This document shows positions 1 through 46,988 of a stretch of 46,988 nt of DNA, in pieces. The stretch comes from a virus. The position numbers were made by a program, and so were the translations under genes. Each line of letters opens with the position of its first letter. Position 1 is the stretch's first letter. Where the stretch lies: positions 1 to 46,988 of the IMG/VR virus record IMGVR_UViG_3300025000_000167, one strand, 5' to 3'. The notes beneath the pieces were generated by a model that saw only the letters and a list, made by a program, of their open reading frames with translations, had not been told where the DNA came from and ran no database searches.

Positions 1-1434
1 GAGTGCTGTTATTCGAAAGGAAATTCTGTTGCCTAATACGCTGTGCAGATAGAAGGGGTCAGTAATTCGTAATACTTCGCCCCAATCCTTTTCATCCCAA
101 TTTCCCTCATCCCACACCAGCGAGTTGTCAACGATGCTGTCTACCGATTTGAACCCCTCAAGGTTGCCGTAATCCACGTCATAGCCGAAGGTAATGGCGG
201 AGTTTACGGTGCCAAGGGATTCGATTTCAGGAGCAAAGTATCTCCACTGTTTCTCGTGAATAATGCCCTCGTCAAGATAGGCGTGCTGCACAGTAGAGGT
301 AATAGGCGTTCCGTCATCGGTCTGTGAGTTGTCGAGTTTGTAAAGGGTGCCGTTGGATGAATCGCCTATCAATACAGCCCCATCGTCGCCCTCTGCATCC
401 AGTACAGCAAAAGATGCAGCACTGAGCGTATCCCAAGAAGTTATGCCCTGGTAACGGTCGTCAAGGCACAATATCTGCGTGCCTACATGAACTAGGGCAC
501 GGCGCATATTGGGTTGATACACAGCAAAGCACGCGGCACGGTCGGCAGAGGTCATGCTTTCAATGACTACCCGGTGCGTGTCAGATACTTCCCTGACCCC
601 GGCAAGATCAAAAAGGTAGACGTTGTTAGCGCCAACAAATATTCCCTCGTCAAGTAGACTGTCCGGAGCTACACATCCAACAGAATCAGAAAGGGGGCTT
701 TCAGGGATACGGTAATTATCTACGTTGGTGCCGTACAGCGGCCATACTGAGCGGTTTTTGGTGATTATCAATCCACCGTCTTGCGGGGAGATGCCGGTTA
801 TTATGTCGCCGTCGCCATCCCGCACCTTGATTGCTTCCAACACCGGCCATGTCTCAGGATCTTCAAGCGCCGAACTGCGTATAACGTTCGGGTTGGCAAC
901 GTCAACAAGTCGCAAGCGCGAACCGTACACCTTGATGTATTTCGACTTGGGAGGACTTCCGGCAAGGTCGCCAAAGGTGGTTCCGTCCCATACCTTTACG
1001 TCATCAACGCCGTTGGTAAGAATCAGTTTATCTTTCCATACGACTGAGCGGAATTTGGCAGCGTTCAGGCTGTTGGCTAGTTCGGTGGGGGTCAAAAACT
1101 GCGTGCTGCCGTCATAGGCGTACTGATACAGTTTTGTTCCGAACTGCACGACTATGTATGTGGTGCCGCTTTCCTTTGCGTACCTGTGAACGCTGGTTAT
1201 TGCCCCTGCGCCCAGCGGAGTAGTGAACACTGCCGACTTGCCCCGCCGCGTCTCTAATACTCCCTCGCCGGTCATGACCATATTCAGCGCGATAAGGCAC
1301 TGATTAGGCTTGAGGAATTCCGGCAATATCTGCCTATTCTCCCCCCCGGTAAAGTCACGGTTGCGGGAAAACTCCCACCGTTCCTCAGTTTCCTGGTTGC
1401 GGTCGGGAGCTATTTGGAGGGAGGGGAAACGCAT
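1..1434 (-). CDS. P22 gp10-like tail hub / DNA stabilization protein, 3'-truncated by window edge
   Basis: This is the left copy of the gene at 42523-44013. It has 478 codons here and lacks only the last 18 residues and the stop. The product resembles the packaged-DNA stabilization (plug, hub) proteins of P22-like podoviruses, which sit below the portal-adaptor ring. The repeated beta-rich segments with turns around DG, NG and GT are compatible with a propeller-like fold. The ATG at 1434 overlaps the adaptor stop (TAATG), so translation is probably coupled. The family call rests on position and general resemblance. Confidence 0.75.
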   Translation of the reverse strand, partial: MRFPSLQIAPDRNQETEERWEFSRNRDFTGGENRQILPEFLKPNQCLIALNMVMTGEGVLETRRGKSAVFTTPLGAGAITSVHRYAKESGTTYIVVQFGTKLYQYAYDGSTQFLTPTELANSLNAAKFRSVVWKDKLILTNGVDDVKVWDGTTFGDLAGSPPKSKYIKVYGSRLRLVDVANPNVIRSSALEDPETWPVLEAIKVRDGDGDIITGISPQDGGLIITKNRSVWPLYGTNVDNYRIPESPLSDSVGCVAPDSLLDEGIFVGANNVYLFDLAGVREVSDTHRVVIESMTSADRAACFAVYQPNMRRALVHVGTQILCLDDRYQGITSWDTLSAASFAVLDAEGDDGAVLIGDSSNGTLYKLDNSQTDDGTPITSTVQHAYLDEGIIHEKQWRYFAPEIESLGTVNSAITFGYDVDYGNLEGFKSVDSIVDNSLVWDEGNWDEKDWGEVLRITDPFYLHSVLGNRISFRITAL

Positions 1435-2183
1435 TAGGCTACCCTTGTAAAGATGTGGCTGAAAGTACCGTCGCCGTTGTCTACTATCTGTAATTCGTAG
1501 AAATTACCGTCCGTTGCCTGAATTGTGTTGCTGTACATGATTGAAGCTGAACCGCCCGCTCCCATGGAGTTGGCAATGTGCGCGGCGGTAATTCTGATGT
1601 AGCCGTGAGTGTCGTTCTTCGGCAGCGGTTTTAGACGGTTGTCCCAAGACTTAGCAAGGGACATTTGATACTTGAATAACTCAGTTTCGGCGGGGAAACG
1701 TCCGTCTTTGTCGTACTTAAAGCAGCGGAGTAGCGTGCCAGAGATAAGCAGGTTTTCAAGTTCAACCGGGAAAATAGTTGAATCTTCGCTATCGGCATAC
1801 TTGGTATTAAGCCCGGTTTCATACTTCAGTTCACAACTACCTGATGCACCGGGTTCAAAAGTAATGGTGCCGTCAGGATCGCGGGTATATCCCACATAAC
1901 CGTCAAGTGCTTCAAGGTCGCTCAACTGGTCATGTGGGACAAACATTGAATCCCCCACCTTGAGGTAAACCACCTCAGAAGCGGTGGAGGGGAGGGTTAC
2001 TTGGTTATTGGAAATACTCAAGACCTCAATGGTTTCAAGGAATTTCCACGCTCTAGGCTGGTTGAGCACGTCACGTACAGTCTGATTTAGCCACGCAAGG
2101 GCTTTAACACGCATGGCGTCGCTGTTGTCGGTAACTTCCAGCATGACTGCATCAAGCACCGTTTTTGTAGTCAGAAAGACCAT
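1434..2183 (-). CDS. Head-to-tail adaptor (P22 gp4-like)
   Basis: The product has 249 residues. The N-terminal half is helical with an early conserved segment (ALAWLNQTVRDVL) of the kind seen in podovirus connector proteins that dock under the portal. The central part is beta-rich (GTITFEPGASGSCELKYETG). It follows a small frameshift gene and overlaps the gp10-like gene by TAATG. AAGGG lies about 8 bases before the ATG. The second copy at 44013-44762 differs by only a few residues. At 249 aa it is longer than P22 gp4, so the role is inferred mainly from gene order. Confidence 0.7.
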   Translation of the reverse strand: MVFLTTKTVLDAVMLEVTDNSDAMRVKALAWLNQTVRDVLNQPRAWKFLETIEVLSISNNQVTLPSTASEVVYLKVGDSMFVPHDQLSDLEALDGYVGYTRDPDGTITFEPGASGSCELKYETGLNTKYADSEDSTIFPVELENLLISGTLLRCFKYDKDGRFPAETELFKYQMSLAKSWDNRLKPLPKNDTHGYIRITAAHIANSMGAGGSASIMYSNTIQATDGNFYELQIVDNGDGTFSHIFTRVA

Positions 2184-2186
2184 TTG

Positions 2187-2290
2187 TTAGCCCTTGCACG
2201 CCTTAACGTGGTTGGTGTACGCCATCTTTATTTTGCAATCCTTACCGCATGAGGGACAAACAAAGCCGGATGCCCTATCTGTCCCTTCTA
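2187..2290 (-). CDS. -1 frame zinc-finger extension of the upstream small gene
   Basis: This reading frame has no start codon of its own but opens exactly at the -1 frame of the slippery site that ends the gene at 2288-2572. It adds 34 residues, including CPSCGKDC, then a His and a final Cys (CxxC...HxxxxC), typical of a small C2HC zinc finger. The same frame in the other copy (44766-44869) differs almost only at synonymous third positions: GTT/GTC, GGT/GGC, AAG/AAA, AAC/AAT. That pattern shows the frame is translated and under selection. It ends just before the adaptor ATG. Confidence 0.75.
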
Positions 2291-2312
2291 CTTTTTTTCT
2301 TCTTCAGGCTCC
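2252..2312 (-). promoter_or_regulatory. Programmed -1 ribosomal frameshift signal
   Basis: The elements, in mRNA order, are an SD-like GGAG (2312-2309), an 11-nt spacer, the heptamer A AAA AAG in phase (2297-2291), the zero-frame stop TAG (2290-2288), and a stem AGGGACA/TGTCCCT (2286-2280 with 2258-2252). This is the layout known from E. coli dnaX, with the same heptamer and an SD-like stimulator about 10 nt upstream plus a downstream hairpin. The other genome copy keeps all elements, with GAGG as the SD-like site and one stem pair changed to a wobble. Frameshift efficiency cannot be judged from sequence. Confidence 0.75.
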
Positions 2313-2572
2313 GGTTTCTCCGCAATCTTCAGGAGGTCGGTATTGTCAATGCCGGGGATGAATGGCTCCGAAACTTTGTAGTGCCGGAACATGCGATTGA
2401 GGTAATCGGCACGCACTGCGGAGATTTCGAAGAAGTGTCGTTCTTCGCCGTCCACTGTTTCAGATTTCAGTTTTTCACCTTCCAGTGAATGCCGGTCGTC
2501 ACTGTTCGGGTAGGGCTTATACACTCGTACACGAAACCGCTCGTTCATTTTGTCTTGAATAGTCTTTGACAT
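2288..2572 (-). CDS. Small virion-region protein, zero-frame product of the frameshift gene
   Basis: The product has 94 residues, is charged, and ends in an acidic and lysine tail (PEPEEEKK). No domain is recognised. It lies between coat-associated genes and the adaptor. Ending at TAG directly after A AAA AAG, it should be made together with a longer form of about 128 residues carrying a zinc finger. This resembles the strategy of tail-assembly chaperone genes in long-tailed phages, but no sequence similarity to those is visible and this phage appears short-tailed. An ATG follows a weak purine-rich site. Confidence 0.7.
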   Translation of the reverse strand: MSKTIQDKMNERFRVRVYKPYPNSDDRHSLEGEKLKSETVDGEERHFFEISAVRADYLNRMFRHYKVSEPFIPGIDNTDLLKIAEKPEPEEEKK

Positions 2573-2592
2573 TTAAATCCACCTTTCTCGGG

Positions 2593-2910
2593 CTATATGA
2601 GCCGCTTTTTTGTACAAAACACGTCTTTACCTTCTTTTTCCTTCTTTATTTGCAGAAACTTATGGATAGCAACAATGTCGTTGTCGATGCCTAATTTTTG
2701 TATTTCCAGCCACCACACCATAGGTACGCTTGCCATCTTGTACCCCATGTCAAGATCGCGCTTATCGAAAGCGCCTGAATTGTTTTCCCTGTCTTCGTGC
2801 GCCTGCGCAAGTACCGGGTCCAAGTCTTGAACGTAGGTCCCAACCGCCTTATCTTTCTCGTAGCGGTAATTTGCTAACATGCAGCGGGATAATCTGCTTT
2901 TATGTGACAC
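2593..2910 (-). CDS. Conserved virion-region protein of unknown function
   Basis: The product has 105 residues, is rich in charged residues, and has a hydrophobic segment near VPMVWWLEIQKLG. Here the start is GTG (VSHKSRL); the other copy has ATG at the aligned codon (MTRKSRL, 45489), which fixes the start. It lies directly after an exported protein and before the frameshift gene. No family is recognised. Position suggests a head completion or decoration role, but that is only inference. Confidence 0.65.
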   Translation of the reverse strand: MSHKSRLSRCMLANYRYEKDKAVGTYVQDLDPVLAQAHEDRENNSGAFDKRDLDMGYKMASVPMVWWLEIQKLGIDNDIVAIHKFLQIKKEKEGKDVFCTKKRLI

Positions 2911-2935
2911 GGCTCGTCTTTCTTTGAGGTAAGGG

Positions 2936-2980
2936 GGGTTATAGCCCCCCTTACGTTGTTTGGCTAAAGTAATACGTTGG
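2936..2980. promoter_or_regulatory. Intergenic hairpin plus 17-bp operator-like site A
   Basis: A strong dyad (TAAGGGGGG / CCCCCCTTA with a 4-base loop) has no U tract, so it is more likely an mRNA processing or stability element than a terminator. Next to it, 2964-2980 (CTAAAGTAATACGTTGG) matches the dispersed palindrome found at promoters elsewhere. On the minus strand it includes TATTAC, 17 bases after TTAACT, a weak promoter match. The 27 bases holding this site are missing from the other copy near 45530. Confidence 0.5.
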
Positions 2981-3412
2981 TTAATCCGAAAAGTTAAACC
3001 ACGCTTTCAGCTTGCCGCCCACGGTGCCGGAAGTCCATTTTAGGCGAACGTAATTTGAAATGTCGGCCCAGGTAAAATTACCGTTGGTGGTACGGCTAAC
3101 CGCTGTCTGTGCGTAGTCGTTGGCTACACAGGTTGACCAAGGGCCGCTTGACGTGGGACCGCATTCGGCAATGACGGTGCCGCTCATGTTCTTAAAGGTA
3201 ATGCTGGAAAGGGAACTGGTCAGCGTTACGCCGGAAACATGCAGGGTCTTGAAACGCTTGCCGGAAACGTTGTACACGTCTGAAGTCTTGACCGCAGCAC
3301 TTGCAGCTGAGATGTTGGAAAACGGTACTTTACTGGTGAAATTTGCCGCGAAAGCCGGAAGGGAAGCAAGGCAGAAGGCCGACACGACAATGAAGCCAAT
3401 CAATCTTTTCAT
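2981..3412 (-). CDS. Exported small protein encoded beside the coat gene
   Basis: The product has 143 residues. The N-terminus MKRLIGFIVVSAFCLASLPAFAA is a textbook Sec signal peptide (KR, hydrophobic core, AFA cleavage). The mature part is beta-rich with two conserved cysteines. The SD GGAGG lies 8 bases before the ATG. The gene sits between coat and adaptor-region genes, where decoration proteins are usual, yet a signal peptide would send the product to the periplasm or surface. The other copy (45533-45964) keeps the signal and differs at a handful of residues. Confidence 0.7.
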   Translation of the reverse strand: MKRLIGFIVVSAFCLASLPAFAANFTSKVPFSNISAASAAVKTSDVYNVSGKRFKTLHVSGVTLTSSLSSITFKNMSGTVIAECGPTSSGPWSTCVANDYAQTAVSRTTNGNFTWADISNYVRLKWTSGTVGGKLKAWFNFSD

Positions 3413-3425
3413 TGCGTAATCCTCC

Positions 3426-3450
3426 GTAAAGGAGGGGGCTTTCGCCCCCT
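3426..3450 (-). other. GNRA-type hairpin after the coat gene
   Basis: The minus-strand RNA folds as GGGGGC-GAAA-GCCCCC directly after the coat stop and before the SD of the next gene. There is no U run. The hairpin is kept in the other copy near 45980. It may protect or process the abundant coat mRNA. Confidence 0.55.
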
Positions 3451-3454
3451 TGGG

Positions 3455-4411
3455 TTAAGTGGTGGCAAGGTTGGTGATACGACCTGCCGATGCCTCGTTT
3501 CTTGCTTCCAGCGTGTGCTGTACGGTCAAGTGGTGCTTGGTGTTCGACCGGGAGGTTTTGGCAAGTTCGGTGATTCCCATCGGAACAAGCGTTGCTTTTT
3601 TCCAGAAAGAAATGTCGAGGATGACAAATACATCCGTGGGCATGGTACGGTGAATCTGTGCCTTTACATCGCCCCAGGAGGTCATGTAAATGTCAACAAC
3701 ATCGTTCATCTTGTTGCTGTCGCCCTGCTGCCGACGGTTGGCCTGACCACTGTTGATAAACTGGTCAAACTTGTCCTTCTGGATGCTGCCGCAGTATGCC
3801 GTAAGCATCTTGCCTGCACCACCGCCGCCTGCGGAGTACGTATTTTGCAGGACGTTCTTTACCAGGTCTTTGGTGAACTCGCGTGCCGAGCCGCCCGTTA
3901 CCGAACCGTCAGCGCCGAGGGTGGCATCAGCGGCTTTGTCGAGGTTGGTTGTGATCCACGGCAAGAGGCCGCGCATCGAGGGTGCTACAGTGTCGCTACC
4001 GTCTGCGCGTACTTCTCGCAGGAACGCCCATTCAACGTCGCCAACAAGTTCCTTCATTTTCTTGGCTTTCTGGTACTCGTACCCGCCAGATCCGCCAACG
4101 GTGGTTTCCGCTTCGGCAGTGTCGGTCATGGTGAACGACTCTTCCTGAAGCTGAATGTTGTTGTAAATCTTCGTCGGCTGGCTGGATGCCTGCATGGTGG
4201 GGTCAGAACCCAACAGCGACTTGTTTTGAGCGGGGGTGCGAAGCGTATCAGTCATGAACTCGTGCTTGATAGACTTCGGCTTATCGCCAGCACCGCAGGC
4301 ATGGTAAAACGGGCTGTCAATCGGGGTTATGATGCTGATTTCGTCCAGCAGGGATTCCCGCGTACCAGTGAGGTCATACGGGGTAAGTGCGTTGCTTGGA
4401 ATATCTCCCAT
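3455..4411 (-). CDS. Major capsid (coat) protein
   Basis: The product has 318 residues. The N-terminus (TRESLLDEISIITPIDSPFY) followed by a segment on long-range contacts, a Gly/Ser-rich loop (VGGSGGYEYQKAKKMKEL) and a C-terminal beta segment resembles the SU10/DUF5309 type of HK97-fold coat protein. It follows the scaffold gene directly, with SD GGAGG before the ATG. It is the most conserved protein between the two genome copies: only Thr/Met and Met/Ile changes are seen against many silent changes. The role is also supported by order after portal and scaffold. Confidence 0.85.
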   Translation of the reverse strand: MGDIPSNALTPYDLTGTRESLLDEISIITPIDSPFYHACGAGDKPKSIKHEFMTDTLRTPAQNKSLLGSDPTMQASSQPTKIYNNIQLQEESFTMTDTAEAETTVGGSGGYEYQKAKKMKELVGDVEWAFLREVRADGSDTVAPSMRGLLPWITTNLDKAADATLGADGSVTGGSAREFTKDLVKNVLQNTYSAGGGGAGKMLTAYCGSIQKDKFDQFINSGQANRRQQGDSNKMNDVVDIYMTSWGDVKAQIHRTMPTDVFVILDISFWKKATLVPMGITELAKTSRSNTKHHLTVQHTLEARNEASAGRITNLATT

Positions 4412-4425
4412 TGTTTAATCCTCCG

Positions 4426-5403
4426 TCAGTTTGCGGAAGCAAGCCGACGCTTTGCCGCCGAGTATGCCGCTAGGTCTTCGGCGTTCCCGCTGGTTTCGGC
4501 ACGCTTCCTCAGCGCGTCGAGTTCGGGATTGCCTATTACTTCGCCGGTTGAGGTCTTCCCCGGTGGTAACATCTGCTTTGCTTCTTCTTTTTGTTGTATG
4601 AGTGCTTCCTGCTTCTTGCCCATGTTGTTCTTGACGTGCTCCCAAGCAAAAAGTACCGCCGATGCTGCACCGCCAATCATCACCTTTTCGTCAAACTGCC
4701 GTTGCAAGAACGGGTTTGACTTGCAAGCGTTAATGAAGAATTGACGGCCTGCCTGGAAAGCGTCGTCCGGTATTCTTTCCTGATCTTTGAGAAGGGTTAA
4801 GGCATCGTTGATGCGCGACTGCATTTGCTGGTGGTACGCCTGATTCTGAGCCGTGGTCTGTTGACGCTTGACGTAATCGGCCCGGTTCCGCTCGTTTTCC
4901 CTTATTTCCCTGATTATCTGCTCCCGCTCCCCTTGTATCTGGAAAAGCTCGTTAAGCAGGTCAGAGGAAGCGTTATCAGGGTCAAGTGCAATGTCCTCGC
5001 GGATTGCCGTTTCCCGTGCTACCATTTTTTTCAGGTAGCCGTTAAGCCGGTCATAATCAACTTCAACAAAATTTGGCCGTTCAAGTGCCTGTGCCTGCTC
5101 CCTCTCTGCCAGCCGGGATTCCATCTCTTGAAGCTTGGTTTCAAGATCCCTTGTCTTGGCTTCCACAACTTCATTGACGCGAACCTCGAAAGGCTTGCTA
5201 ATGTTCTTCTCGCCCTCCGTTGCGCCTTGCGCTTCCTGACCGGTTGGTGTTCCCGCCCCTTCTCCACCCTCAATCTCCGCAGACTGAGTGAAAGGCACAG
5301 CGCCAGTGGGTTGGCTTTCCTGAATGCTCTCCTGCCCCGCGACAGGAGTTGTAGGCGCAGCGCCAGCGTCGGTAGTAGCCATTTGTGCGGTTAAATCGTC
5401 CAT
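4426..5403 (-). CDS. Scaffolding protein
   Basis: The product has about 325 residues, starting at MDDLTAQ (SD GGAAG). The N-terminal third is low-complexity and rich in T, E, G and Q. The middle is long coiled coil (ETKLQEMESRLAEREQ). The C-terminal third is helical and basic. This fits a podovirus scaffold that directs coat assembly and leaves the procapsid. It lies between portal-side genes and coat. In-frame upstream codons exist but lack an SD. Identity is from context and composition. Confidence 0.75.
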   Translation of the reverse strand: MDDLTAQMATTDAGAAPTTPVAGQESIQESQPTGAVPFTQSAEIEGGEGAGTPTGQEAQGATEGEKNISKPFEVRVNEVVEAKTRDLETKLQEMESRLAEREQAQALERPNFVEVDYDRLNGYLKKMVARETAIREDIALDPDNASSDLLNELFQIQGEREQIIREIRENERNRADYVKRQQTTAQNQAYHQQMQSRINDALTLLKDQERIPDDAFQAGRQFFINACKSNPFLQRQFDEKVMIGGAASAVLFAWEHVKNNMGKKQEALIQQKEEAKQMLPPGKTSTGEVIGNPELDALRKRAETSGNAEDLAAYSAAKRRLASAN

Positions 5404-42526: not shown

Positions 42527-44013
42527 AAATCTCCGTGCCTCCGCCACTTTGTCACATACCCAAGGTATTTGATGCGGTCGAGTGCTGTTATCCGAAAAGA
42601 AATCCTGTTGCCTAAGACGCTGTGTAGATAAAAGGGGTCAGTAATCCGTAAGACTTCGCCCCACTCCTTTTCGTCCCAATTCCCTTCATCCCATACAAGC
42701 GAGTTGTCAACAATGCTGTCTATGGACTTGAACCCCTCAAGGTTGCCGTAATCCACGTCATAGCCAAAAGTAATGGCAGAGTTGACGGTGCCAAGGGATT
42801 CAATTTCGGGGGCAAAGTACCTCCACTGTTTTTTGTGGATAATGCCCTCGTCAAGATAGGCGTGTTGTACGGTGGAGGTAATAGGCGTGCCATCGTCGGT
42901 CTGTGAGTTGTCCAGCTTGTAAAGCGTGCCATTGGTTGCATCCCCTATCAATACCGCCCCGTCGTCGCCCTCTGCGTCAAGCACAGCAAAGGATGCGGCA
43001 CTCAGCGTATCCCAAGAGGTAATCCCTTGATAACGGTCATCTAGGCACAATATCTGCGCCCCTACGTGAACCAATGCACGGCGCATGTTGGATTGGTAGA
43101 CAGCAAAGCAGTTGGCACGGTCGGCAGCGGTCATGCTTTCAATAACTACCCGGTGCGTGTCTGATACTTCCTTAACTCCGGCAAGGTCGAAGAGGTAGAC
43201 GTTGTTTGCGCCTACAAACATCCCTTCATCAAGCAGACTATCGGGGGCAACACAGCCGATAGAATTGGAAAGGGGGCTTTCGGGGATACGATAATTGTCT
43301 TTGTTGGTGCCGTACAACGGCCACACAGAGCGGTTTTTGGTGATAATCAACCCGCCGTCTTGCGGGGATATTCCGGTTATTATGTCGCCGTCACCGTCGC
43401 GCACCTTGATTGCTTCCAACACCGGCCATGTCTCAGGGTCTTCAAGTTCTGAGCTGCGTATTACGTTAGGGTTAGCAACGTCAACAAGCCGGAGGCGCGA
43501 ACCGTACACCTTGATGTATTTCGATTTGGGAGGACTCCCGGCAAGGTCGCCAAAGGTGGTTCCGTCCCATACCTTTACATCGTCTGAGCCATTGGTAAGA
43601 ATCAGCTTATCTTTCCACACGACCGAGCGGAATTTAGCAGCGTTCAGGCTGTTGGCTAGTTCAGTGGGGGTTAAAAACTGAGTGCTGCCGTCATAGGCGT
43701 ACTGATACAGTTTTGTACCGAACTGCACGACTAGGTAGGTGGTGCCGCTTTCTTTTGCATACCTGTGAACGCTGGTTATTGCGCCAGCACCTAGCGGGGT
43801 TGTGAACACTGCTGATTTGCCCCGCCGTGTCTCTAACACTCCCTCGCCGGTCATGACCATATTCAGCGCGATAAGGCATTGATTGGGCTTGAGAAATTCG
43901 GGCAGTATTTGCCGGTTCTCTCCGCCGGTAAAGTCGCGGTTGCGGGAAAACTCCCACCGTTCCTCAGTTTCCTGGTTGCGGTCGGGAGGTATTTGGAGGG
44001 AGGGGAAACGCAT
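42523..44013 (-). CDS. P22 gp10-like tail hub / DNA stabilization protein (full copy)
   Basis: The product has 496 residues, complete copy of the gene truncated at the left edge. It has an N-terminal NRDFTGGENRQILPEFLK, then repeated beta blades with NGSDDVKVWDGTTF and GLIITKNRSVWPLYG, as in the gp10-type plug proteins. TAATG overlap with the adaptor. It differs from the left copy by few residues and many silent changes. Confidence 0.75.
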   Translation of the reverse strand: MRFPSLQIPPDRNQETEERWEFSRNRDFTGGENRQILPEFLKPNQCLIALNMVMTGEGVLETRRGKSAVFTTPLGAGAITSVHRYAKESGTTYLVVQFGTKLYQYAYDGSTQFLTPTELANSLNAAKFRSVVWKDKLILTNGSDDVKVWDGTTFGDLAGSPPKSKYIKVYGSRLRLVDVANPNVIRSSELEDPETWPVLEAIKVRDGDGDIITGISPQDGGLIITKNRSVWPLYGTNKDNYRIPESPLSNSIGCVAPDSLLDEGMFVGANNVYLFDLAGVKEVSDTHRVVIESMTAADRANCFAVYQSNMRRALVHVGAQILCLDDRYQGITSWDTLSAASFAVLDAEGDDGAVLIGDATNGTLYKLDNSQTDDGTPITSTVQHAYLDEGIIHKKQWRYFAPEIESLGTVNSAITFGYDVDYGNLEGFKSIDSIVDNSLVWDEGNWDEKEWGEVLRITDPFYLHSVLGNRISFRITALDRIKYLGYVTKWRRHGDL

Positions 44014-44762
44014 TAGGCTACCCGCGTAAAGATGTGGCTAAAAGTGCCGTCGCCGTTGTCAACTATCTGCAATTCGTAGAAATTGCCGTCCGTTGCCTGA
44101 ATCGTGTTGCTGTACATAATTGAAGCACTGCCACCTGTACCCATGGAGTTGGCAATGTGCGCGGCGGTAATCCTGATATAGCCATGAGTGTCATTCTTTG
44201 GTAGCGGTTTAAGGCGGTTATCCCAGGCTTTAGCAAGAGACATTTGATACTTGAACAACTCAGTTTCGGCGGGAAAGCGTCCATCCTTGTCGTACTTAAA
44301 GCAGCGGAGTAACGTACCAGAGATAAGCAGGTTTTCAAGTTCGACAGGGAAAATGGTTGAGTCTTCGCTGTCGGCATACTTGGTATTAAGCCCGGTTTCA
44401 TACTTCAATTCACAACTACCAGATGCACCAGGCTCAAAAGTAATGGTGCCGTCTGTATCGCGGGTGTACCCCACACAGCCATCAAGTGCCTCAAGGTCGC
44501 TCAATTGGTCATGCGGGACAAACATGGAATCGCCCACCTTAAGGTAAACAACTTCTGAGGCGGGGGCCGGAAGGGTAATTTGGTTGTTGGAAATACTCAA
44601 AACCTCGACAGCTTCAAGGAACTTCCACGCCCTAGGCTGATTGAGTACGTCGCGTACAGCCTGGTTTAGCCATGCAAGGGCCTTGACGCGCATAGCGTCG
44701 CTGTTGTCGGTAACTTCCAACATGACTGCATCAAGCACTGATTTTGTGGTCAAAAAAACCAT
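44013..44762 (-). CDS. Head-to-tail adaptor (second copy)
   Basis: The product has 249 residues. Compared with the left copy it has a few conservative changes (T/A, Y/C and P/T substitutions) against many silent ones. See the left copy for role. Confidence 0.7.
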   Translation of the reverse strand: MVFLTTKSVLDAVMLEVTDNSDAMRVKALAWLNQAVRDVLNQPRAWKFLEAVEVLSISNNQITLPAPASEVVYLKVGDSMFVPHDQLSDLEALDGCVGYTRDTDGTITFEPGASGSCELKYETGLNTKYADSEDSTIFPVELENLLISGTLLRCFKYDKDGRFPAETELFKYQMSLAKAWDNRLKPLPKNDTHGYIRITAAHIANSMGTGGSASIMYSNTIQATDGNFYELQIVDNGDGTFSHIFTRVA

Positions 44763-44765
44763 TTG

Positions 44766-44869
44766 TTAGCCCTTGCACGCCTTGACGTGATTGGTGTACG
44801 CCATCTTGATCTTGCAATCTTTGCCGCATGAGGGACAGACAAAGCCGGATGCCTTATCTATCCCTTCTA
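44766..44869 (-). CDS. -1 frame zinc-finger extension (second copy)
   Basis: The same 34-residue extension; only I/T and K/R type changes near its start, while CPSCGKDCKIKMAYTNHVKA is unchanged. The silent changes demonstrate constraint on this frame. TAA at 44768-44766. Confidence 0.75.
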
Positions 44870-44890
44870 CTTTTTTATTTCTTCAACCTC
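44831..44890 (-). promoter_or_regulatory. Programmed -1 frameshift signal (second copy)
   Basis: AGAGG, 10 bases, A AAA AAG, TAG, then stem AGGGATA/TGTCCCT. The codon before the slip changed from GAA to ATA yet the heptamer is kept, and the stem change gives a G-U pair. Both point to selection for the signal. Confidence 0.75.
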
Positions 44891-45151
44891 TGGTTTCTCA
44901 GCTATCTTCAAGAGGTCGGTATTGTCAACACCGGGAATGAAAGGTTCAGAAACCTTGTAATGCCGAAACATCCGATTGATGTAATCGGCGCGTGCGGCGG
45001 ATATTTCAAAAAAGTGTCGTTCTTCGCCGTCCACCGTTTCGGATTTCAGTTTTTCACCTTCCAGTGAATGCCGGTCATCACTGTTCGGGTGGGGCTTGTA
45101 CACTCGTACACGGAACCGCTCGTTCACTTTGTCCTGAATTGTTTTCGACAT
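44867..45151 (-). CDS. Small virion-region protein, frameshift gene (second copy)
   Basis: The product has 94 residues ending PEVEEIKK. Differs from the left copy at about eight positions. Zero-frame product; see the left copy. Confidence 0.7.
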   Translation of the reverse strand: MSKTIQDKVNERFRVRVYKPHPNSDDRHSLEGEKLKSETVDGEERHFFEISAARADYINRMFRHYKVSEPFIPGVDNTDLLKIAEKPEVEEIKK

Positions 45152-45171
45152 TTAAATCCACCTTTCTTGGG

Positions 45172-45489
45172 CTATATGAGCCGTTTTTTTGTGCAGAACA
45201 CGTCCTTACCTTCTTTTTCCTTCTTTATTTGCAGAAACTTATGAATAGCAACAATGTCGTTGTCGATGCCTAATTTTTGTATTTCCAGCCACCACACCAT
45301 AGGGACGCTTGCCATTTTGTAGCCCATGTCAAGATCGCGCCTGTCAAAAGCGCCTGAATTGTTTTCCCTGTCTTCGTGCGCCTGTGCTAGTACCGGGTTC
45401 AAGTCCTGAACATAAGTTCCCACCGCTTTATCTTTCTCGTAGCGGTAATTTGCCAGCATACAGCGTGATAATCTGCTCTTACGTGTCAT
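45172..45489 (-). CDS. Conserved virion-region protein (second copy)
   Basis: The product has 105 residues from ATG (MTRKSRL). An upstream in-frame start (45519) lies in the gap and lacks support from the left copy. Function unknown. Confidence 0.65.
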   Translation of the reverse strand: MTRKSRLSRCMLANYRYEKDKAVGTYVQDLNPVLAQAHEDRENNSGAFDRRDLDMGYKMASVPMVWWLEIQKLGIDNDIVAIHKFLQIKKEKEGKDVFCTKKRLI

Positions 45490-45532
45490 GTCTTTGCTTT
45501 CTTTAAGTGAAGGGGGCATAAGCCCCCCTCTG

Positions 45533-45964
45533 TTAATCGGAAAAGTTAAACCACGCTTTCAACTTGCCGCCCACGGTGCCGGAGGTCCATTTCAACCGAA
45601 CATAGTTGGAAATATCGGCCCACGTAAAATTACCATTGGTGGTGCGACTCACTGCCGTCTGCGCATAGTCGTTGGCTACACAAGTTGACCAAGGACCGCT
45701 TGACGTGGGCGCACACTCGGCAATGAAGGTGCCGCTCATGTTCTTGTAGGTGATACTGGAAAGCGAACTGGTCAGCGTTACACCGGAAACGTGCAGGGTT
45801 TTAAACCGCTTGCCAGAGACGTTGTAAACATCCGAAGTCTTGACCGCAGCACTTGCCGCTGAAATGTTGGAAAACGGTACTTTACTGGTAAAATTTGCCG
45901 CGAAAGCCGGAAGGGAAGCAAGGCAGAAGGCCGACACGACAATGAAGCTAATCAATCTTTTCAT
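45533..45964 (-). CDS. Exported small protein beside coat gene (second copy)
   Basis: The product has 143 residues. Signal peptide kept (MKRLISFIVVSAFCLASLPA). Changes cluster around ITYKNMSGTFIAECAP. See the left copy. Confidence 0.7.
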   Translation of the reverse strand: MKRLISFIVVSAFCLASLPAFAANFTSKVPFSNISAASAAVKTSDVYNVSGKRFKTLHVSGVTLTSSLSSITYKNMSGTFIAECAPTSSGPWSTCVANDYAQTAVSRTTNGNFTWADISNYVRLKWTSGTVGGKLKAWFNFSD

Positions 45965-46005
45965 TGCGTAATCCTCCGTAAAGGAGGGGGCTTTCGCCCC
46001 CTTGG

Positions 46006-46962
46006 TTAAGTGGTGGCAAGGTTGGTTATACGGCCTGCCGATGCCTCATTTCTTGCTTCCAGCGTGTGCTGTACGGTCAAGTGATGCTTGGTGTTTGACC
46101 GGGAGGTTTTGGCAAGTTCGGTGATCCCAATCGGAACCAGCGTTGCTTTTTTCCAGAAAGAAATGTCAAGGATGACAAATACATCCGTGGGCATGGTTCG
46201 ATGGATCTGCGCCTTTACATCGCCCCAAGAGGTCATGTAAATGTCAACAACATCGTTCATTTTGTTACTGTCGCCCTGCTGCCGACGATTGGCCTGACCG
46301 CTGTTGATGAACTGGTCAAACTTGTCCTTCTGGATGCTGCCGCAGTATGCCGTAAGCATCTTGCCAGCACCGCCGCCGCCTGCTGAATACATGTTTTGCA
46401 AGACGTTCTTTACCAGGTCTTTGGTAAACTCGCGGGCAGAGCCGCCAGTAACCGAACCGTCAGCGCCTAGGGTGGCGTCTGCGGCTTTGTCGAGGTTGGT
46501 CGTGATCCACGGCAGAAGGCCGCGCATCGAGGGGGCTACAGTGTCGCTACCGTCTGCACGGACTTCCCGCAGGAACGCCCATTCAACATCGCCAACAAGT
46601 TCCTTCATCTTCTTGGCTTTCTGGTACTCGTACCCACCAGAACCGCCCACGGTGGTTTCCGCTTCGGCAGTGTCGGTCATGGTGAACGACTCTTCCTGAA
46701 GCTGGATGTTGTTGTAAATCTTCGTCGGCTGGCTGGATGCTTGCATGGTCGGGTCGGAACCCAGCAGGGATTTGTTCTGAGCGGGAGTGCGAAGCGTATC
46801 AGTCATAAACTCATGCTTGATAGACTTCGGTTTGTCGCCAGCACCGCAGGCATGGTAAAAGGGGCTGTCAATCGGGGTAATGATGCTGATTTCGTCCAGC
46901 AGGGATTCCCGCGTACCAGTGAGGTCATACGGGGTAAGTGCGTTGCTTGGAATATCTCCCAT
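46006..46962 (-). CDS. Major capsid protein (second copy)
   Basis: The product has 318 residues, two substitutions compared with the left copy (Thr/Met and Met/Ile). Strong purifying selection in both lineages. See the left copy. Confidence 0.85.
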   Translation of the reverse strand: MGDIPSNALTPYDLTGTRESLLDEISIITPIDSPFYHACGAGDKPKSIKHEFMTDTLRTPAQNKSLLGSDPTMQASSQPTKIYNNIQLQEESFTMTDTAEAETTVGGSGGYEYQKAKKMKELVGDVEWAFLREVRADGSDTVAPSMRGLLPWITTNLDKAADATLGADGSVTGGSAREFTKDLVKNVLQNMYSAGGGGAGKMLTAYCGSIQKDKFDQFINSGQANRRQQGDSNKMNDVVDIYMTSWGDVKAQIHRTMPTDVFVILDISFWKKATLVPIGITELAKTSRSNTKHHLTVQHTLEARNEASAGRITNLATT

Positions 46963-46976
46963 TGTTTAATCCTCCG

Positions 46977-46988
46977 TCAGTTTGCGGA
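46977..46988 (-). CDS. Scaffold gene 3' end, truncated by window edge
   Basis: Only the last three codons and the stop (SAN-stop) of the scaffold gene, aligned with 4426-4437. Confidence 0.8.
   Translation of the reverse strand, partial: SAN

Follow-up and report, generated by a model that had tools for sequence, protein, structure and literature searches.

A predicted dnaX-type −1 frameshift cassette that would add a zinc-finger-like extension to a small virion-operon protein of an SU10/LUZ24-type phage

A small gene in the virion operon of a short-tailed phage stops directly after a slippery heptamer, and a second reading frame with the ligand pattern of a zinc finger continues in the −1 phase toward the adaptor gene, which raises the question of whether, and by what route, the finger is translated. 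The material is the IMG/VR virus record IMGVR_UViG_3300025000_000167, and the whole stretch analyzed (positions 1–46,988) is termed the window. The arrangement of elements listed in Table 1 very probably constitutes a dnaX-type programmed −1 frameshift cassette that yields a minority zinc-finger isoform.

Table 1. Coordinates of the frameshift gene, its sister allele and the marine loci
Feature	Position	Strand	Details
Zero-frame ORF	2288..2572	−	94 aa, terminal codons GAA AAA AAG TAG
Slippery heptamer A AAA AAG, in phase	2291..2297	−	
Zero-frame stop TAG (UAG)	2288..2290	−	directly 3′ of heptamer
−1 extension, zinc-finger-like	2187..2291	−	34 codons plus stop, without own start
Predicted stimulatory hairpin	2252..2286	−	15 bp, 5-nt loop, 4 nt 3′ of heptamer; −22.2 kcal/mol, z −4.1
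SD-like GGAG	2309..2312	−	11 nt 5′ of heptamer; 17% match rate at random positions
Adaptor gene, SU10_adaptor	1434..2183	−	PF24175, E 1.8e-9
Sister allele, zero-frame ORF	44867..45151	−	protein 93% identical
Sister allele, SD-like GAGGT	44886..44890	−	9 nt 5′ of heptamer
Sister allele, heptamer A AAA AAG	44870..44876	−	preceding codon ATA
Sister allele, predicted hairpin	44831..44865	−	15 bp; −23.3 kcal/mol, z −4.9; three substitutions, pairs kept
Sister allele, −1 extension	44766..44870	−	32/34 residues identical
Marine family loci	L204:8871-9150, L114:2447-2745, L189:5400-5750		about 75 further loci (L362-L436)

Slippery site, −1 frame and genome context

The zero frame closes with A AAA AAG TAG (2297–2288(−)), exactly as a sequence-only reading of this DNA had described it, and the heptamer follows the X XXY YYZ pattern in zero-frame phase in both of the alleles compared below. 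The coding part of the −1 extension occupies 2291–2190(−) with its stop at 2189–2187, and translation onward from the G that closes the heptamer gives VEGTDRASGFVCPSCGKDCKIKMAYTNHVKACKG; the predicted fusion product has 128 residues and carries the finger at its C terminus. The same reading had pointed to a start-less −1 frame of 34 residues containing a finger, and this is correct, with ATG, GTG and TTG all absent, in both alleles, from the stretch that separates the upstream stop of this frame from the finger. The ligand spacing is C-x2-C-x12-H-x3-C in both, fitting the CxxC and HxxxC halves of C2H2/C2HC fingers, and zinc binding by the extension is predicted from this sequence. The best Pfam matches have E values of 0.013–0.023 (zf-C2H2, E 0.023), which are below the gathering scores and do not reach the cut-off of a curated finger family, and comparison of the extension with zinc fingers in the PDB gives E 0.18.

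Production of the finger on its own, as a small free protein, by re-initiation after the UAG or from an independent non-standard start, is geometrically possible close to the stop because the UAG shares nucleotides with the first codons of the −1 frame. This alternative is nevertheless extremely improbable, given that no standard start codon precedes the finger (near-cognate starts remain compatible with the sequence) and that the sole ATG of the −1 frame sits within the finger, where it would yield a fragment of 12 amino acids without the CxxC.

The coat protein encoded in the window matches SU10_MCP (PF17236, E 2.1e-67), and SU10_MCP and SU10_adaptor occur in order and above cut-offs, as in the module of SU10/LUZ24-type podoviruses; the nearest cultured coats are those of LUZ24-type Pseudomonas phages (32%). 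By its coat and adaptor sequences the phage is of the SU10/LUZ24 type. The position of the gene between coat and adaptor genes is as first described, but the phage had been called P22-like and no P22 coat model is matched. An integrase is encoded in the window, so the phage may be temperate. Encoded in the virion operon, the zero-frame protein would by gene position be a small head/neck-region protein; it has no family match, its AlphaFold model is of low confidence and fold searches with that model are uninformative. The 104-nt gap between the zero-frame stop and the adaptor gene is filled by the −1 frame, the stop of which lies 3 nt 5′ of the adaptor ATG, and the other gaps of the same operon (−67 to 70 nt) are all below this length.

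A coat profile search returns 80 viral and 39 genome loci at 26–35% identity, whereas homologue searches with the adaptor and with the single-sequence coat find nothing near, and tblastn of the fusion against all of the coat relatives fetched gives no copy of the frameshift gene. The distant relatives inspected have, 3′ of the coat gene, a small gene with the motif of window gene 2593–2910, and in most of them it directly precedes the gene in the adaptor position and is without a −1 finger. Judged against these relatives, the frameshift gene is an extra gene lying between the 2593–2910 gene and the adaptor. Gene 2593–2910, the upstream neighbor, has an in-phase A AAA AAG of its own near its end (2605–2611(−)); this site was rejected as a second cassette, its −1 extension being just 10 codons long and the sister allele having AAAAAAA in its place.

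Hairpin, SD-like site and the sister allele

The stem predicted 3′ of the heptamer is formed by two perfectly paired, uninterrupted arms (2286–2272 and 2266–2252). Not one of 200 dinucleotide shuffles folds as well as the native sequence for either allele, equally stable folds occur in 0.15% of 28,356 46-nt genome windows, and the 18 other non-duplicate AAAAAAG sites in the window have no comparable hairpin, the next best being −13.7. A slippery heptamer close to the end of an ORF with some −1 extension occurs in several cases and is not rare alone; the combination of heptamer, strong hairpin, finger and absent start is rare. SD-like sites are present in both alleles, 11 and 9 nt upstream, and are weak evidence because random positions match at 17%. 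The dnaX-like arrangement proposed from the letters alone is seen in the heptamer and a hairpin at short spacing, with a more weakly supported SD-like site 9–11 nt upstream, and two of its details change. The 4-nt spacing of the stem stands and its length, given as 7 bp, is 15 bp by folding, and the GGAG about 11 nt upstream is that of allele 1, the SD-like site of the second copy being GAGGT at 9 nt.

That second copy arises from an overlap of the contig ends, in which positions 1–4437 match 42580–46988 at 89.3% identity, reaching both ends and with no further repeat. The overlap probably reflects an assembly that went once through a circular or permuted genome and continued into a sister strain, in which case the true genome length would probably be about 42.6 kb; a true terminal duplication whose two copies have diverged by 11% is a less likely reading. 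Since the end-to-end overlap is read as a sister strain, the two copies are treated as alleles, and the diverged copy at 44766–45151 that had been described as keeping the signal is a sister allele rather than a duplicate. It does keep the heptamer; the codon before the two lysines changes from GAA to ATA, and the A needed by the heptamer is retained. The evidence for conservation within this gene rests on the two alleles because no homologue of the 94-residue protein or of the fusion was found outside the contig in IMG/VR, the INPHARED phages and 13 genomes carrying coat relatives.

Across the whole element the alleles differ at 46 sites, nine of which lie in the extension. In agreement with the claim that changes there are mostly silent, seven of the nine are silent in the −1 frame and two are replacing, compared with none silent in the zero frame, and random placement of the same substitutions gives two or fewer amino acid changes in 0.6% of trials (P 0.006). 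Both replacements are placed in the linker ahead of the finger and outside the finger itself. From this pattern, amino-acid-level constraint is acting on the extension. The stem carries three substitutions (C-G to U-G, G-U to A-U and G-U to G-C), all of them still paired, so the claim that the stem is kept in the copy extends to all 15 bp; the changes are consistent with selection on the stem and are too few for proof.

The −1 stop just ahead of the adaptor ATG would bring shifted ribosomes to the adaptor start site, and the hairpin and frameshift could on this account serve chiefly to couple or tune adaptor translation, with the finger sequence being of little importance. Such a role as the main one is unlikely, as the extension is conserved as protein, with its replacements confined to the linker, and as the unrelated marine family described below likewise ends in a metal-binding finger.

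A marine family of the same layout

A scan of IMG/VR for AAAAAAG close to a stop codon and with CPxCG codons 3′ of it revealed a family of small coiled-coil proteins encoded near head-decoration and tail-spike genes in apparently marine phages. In these genes A AAA AAG lies at the end of the zero frame, in most cases with TAG directly after it, and a C4-like finger of the type CPVCGTTFNTMEQRRIYCSGACKTKSCR is encoded in the −1 frame. Conservation was assessed with a protein profile search in which the heptamer was not required, giving 80 loci. AAAAAAG is in phase at 76 of the 80, with 72 of those 76 having no start codon ahead of the finger; one of the remaining four has AAAAAAA and three are without such a site. 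The 76 loci do not represent as many independent events, since many loci are near-identical, the distinct contexts numbering 59. In the distant member L438, which is among the 76, the finger frame opens with an ATG, and a separate gene is the better reading there. The position of the zero-frame stop shifts between members (0, 3 or 6 codons past the heptamer), the heptamer stays constant, and differing zero-frame N termini carry it. Clearly stable hairpins (z below −2) occur in about 56% of the distinct members, no covariation is found in the marine hairpins beyond arm permutation (P 0.24), and SD-like sites are present in 17 of 43 distinct upstream contexts compared with the 17% background.

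Both the window gene and the marine family encode a small protein close to virion genes and have A AAA AAG, a nearby stop and a start-less −1 finger. Their zero-frame parts are unrelated, and common descent of the fingers was considered and rejected, with shuffles that preserve Cys and His scoring higher and the likeness being limited to CPxCG. Because the fingers are not detectably homologous beyond that motif, the two cases look like independent use of one design, and the marine genes are probably an undescribed frameshift family of their own. A search of 15 partial marine records for SU10_MCP, run without a positive control, gave no match.

RNA polymerases slip on long A-runs, and transcriptional rather than ribosomal slippage could in principle produce the fusion, with seven consecutive A in allele 1 and up to nine or ten in some marine members. 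Transcriptional slippage typically involves runs of eight or more (PMC3711429), and the run in allele 2 is six A. The exact A AAA AAG phase is moreover constant despite changing run length, and transcriptional slippage would not call for a strong hairpin at a spacing suited to ribosomes, which together make this route very unlikely. Indels in A-runs are also a common sequencing error and the window is a single contig, so that the two frames could be one true frame split by a sequencing or assembly error, or the finger the dead remnant of a recent frameshift mutation. Alleles 11% apart share the frame relation despite their different run lengths, the finger is under amino acid constraint and the marine family repeats the layout in dozens of contigs, leaving an error or mutation with scarcely any probability.

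Proposed mechanism and comparison with known systems

Programmed −1 frameshifting explains the observations best by a wide margin because it accounts for the heptamer, the hairpin, the SD-like site, the lack of another start, the constraint on the extension and the independent marine family; the slippage itself is predicted from these features. In the proposed mechanism the majority of ribosomes would stop at the UAG and release the 94-residue protein. Some would pause at the hairpin with two Lys-tRNAs on A AAA AAG, assisted by the upstream SD-like site, which is able to pair with 16S rRNA, and both tRNAs would slip one base back so that 34 further codons are read to give the longer isoform. 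The frameshifted ribosomes would finish at the adaptor start, with possible coupling to adaptor translation.

The frameshift elements of dnaX are A AAA AAG, an upstream SD-like site and a downstream hairpin (PMC7282821, PMC3711429), and the E. coli gene and the window gene share all three, the SD-like site being the weakly supported one in the window. A noticeable difference is that the dnaX shift shortens the protein (gamma), whereas the shift in the window extends it past an immediate UAG, and the predicted hairpin is 15 bp compared with 10 bp in the dnaX model RNA.

Recoding is known in phage structural genes, including those for tail chaperones, coat and tail proteins and Ig-like domains. 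Coat-gene frameshifts in the SU10/phiEco32 lineage give a minority structural protein with a C-terminal extension (PMC7881722). The phiEco32/SU10/Privateer coat frameshift, and T7 10A/10B, resemble the window case in the related virion module and the minority extended product; in phiEco32, SU10 and Privateer the recoded gene is the coat gene and the heptamer GGGAAAG, whereas in the window a small adaptor-adjacent protein gains a finger at A AAA AAG. The closest concept is provided by frameshift-attached Ig-like domains, which place a small domain on part of a phage structural protein population (PMC5009743), the difference being that the window adds a 34-residue zinc-finger-like extension and not an Ig fold. 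The G/GT tail-assembly chaperone has a similar purpose, and its gene lies between the major tail protein and the tape measure of long-tailed phages; identity with it was rejected, as the window gene lies between coat-side genes and the SU10_adaptor gene with no tape-measure context.

The recoding literature searched, mainly openly accessible papers, contains no description of a zinc finger attached by frameshifting to a small neck-region protein. A gene finder would list the truncated product alone, and the recurrence of this layout in marine phages, in an unrelated family, suggests that fingers which are recoded and have no start have been overlooked in phage annotation. By analogy with other frameshifts in phage structural genes, which yield extended proteins as a minority product (PMC5009743, PMC7881722), the minority isoform may fix a ratio in head-neck assembly, a few copies being docked through the finger to DNA or to a neighboring neck protein, a tentative proposal that is more doubtful than probable. 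With the window gene, control of the isoform ratio in phage particles becomes open to direct testing. A broader reading, somewhat easier to credit and still short of an even chance, is that phages have repeatedly and independently used dnaX-type frameshifting to equip a small protein of the virion region with a small metal-binding finger, a set minority of subunits carrying a metal-dependent docking module; if true, this would be a general and so far undescribed means of setting assembly stoichiometry.

Pattern scans for other stop-proximal heptamers with a CxxC...HxxxC finger gave mostly chance matches or fingers with their own starts, which were set aside. Two small phage ORFs (L328, L353) end in LKK at AAAAAAG and have a −1 CxxC...HxxxC finger with an overlapping ATG; either a gene overlap or a further frameshift could account for them. 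A finger closely similar to that of the window, VCPDCGKLCKNAGSLSNHMKGCKAK, is present in a phage protein at L472:5792-6139, where it is in frame with its own start in an unrelated setting. Directly after the coat gene, the window also contains a 143-amino acid gene (2981–3412(−)) with a signal-peptide-like start, MKRLIGFIVVSAFCLASLPAFA, which is unusual within a capsid operon.
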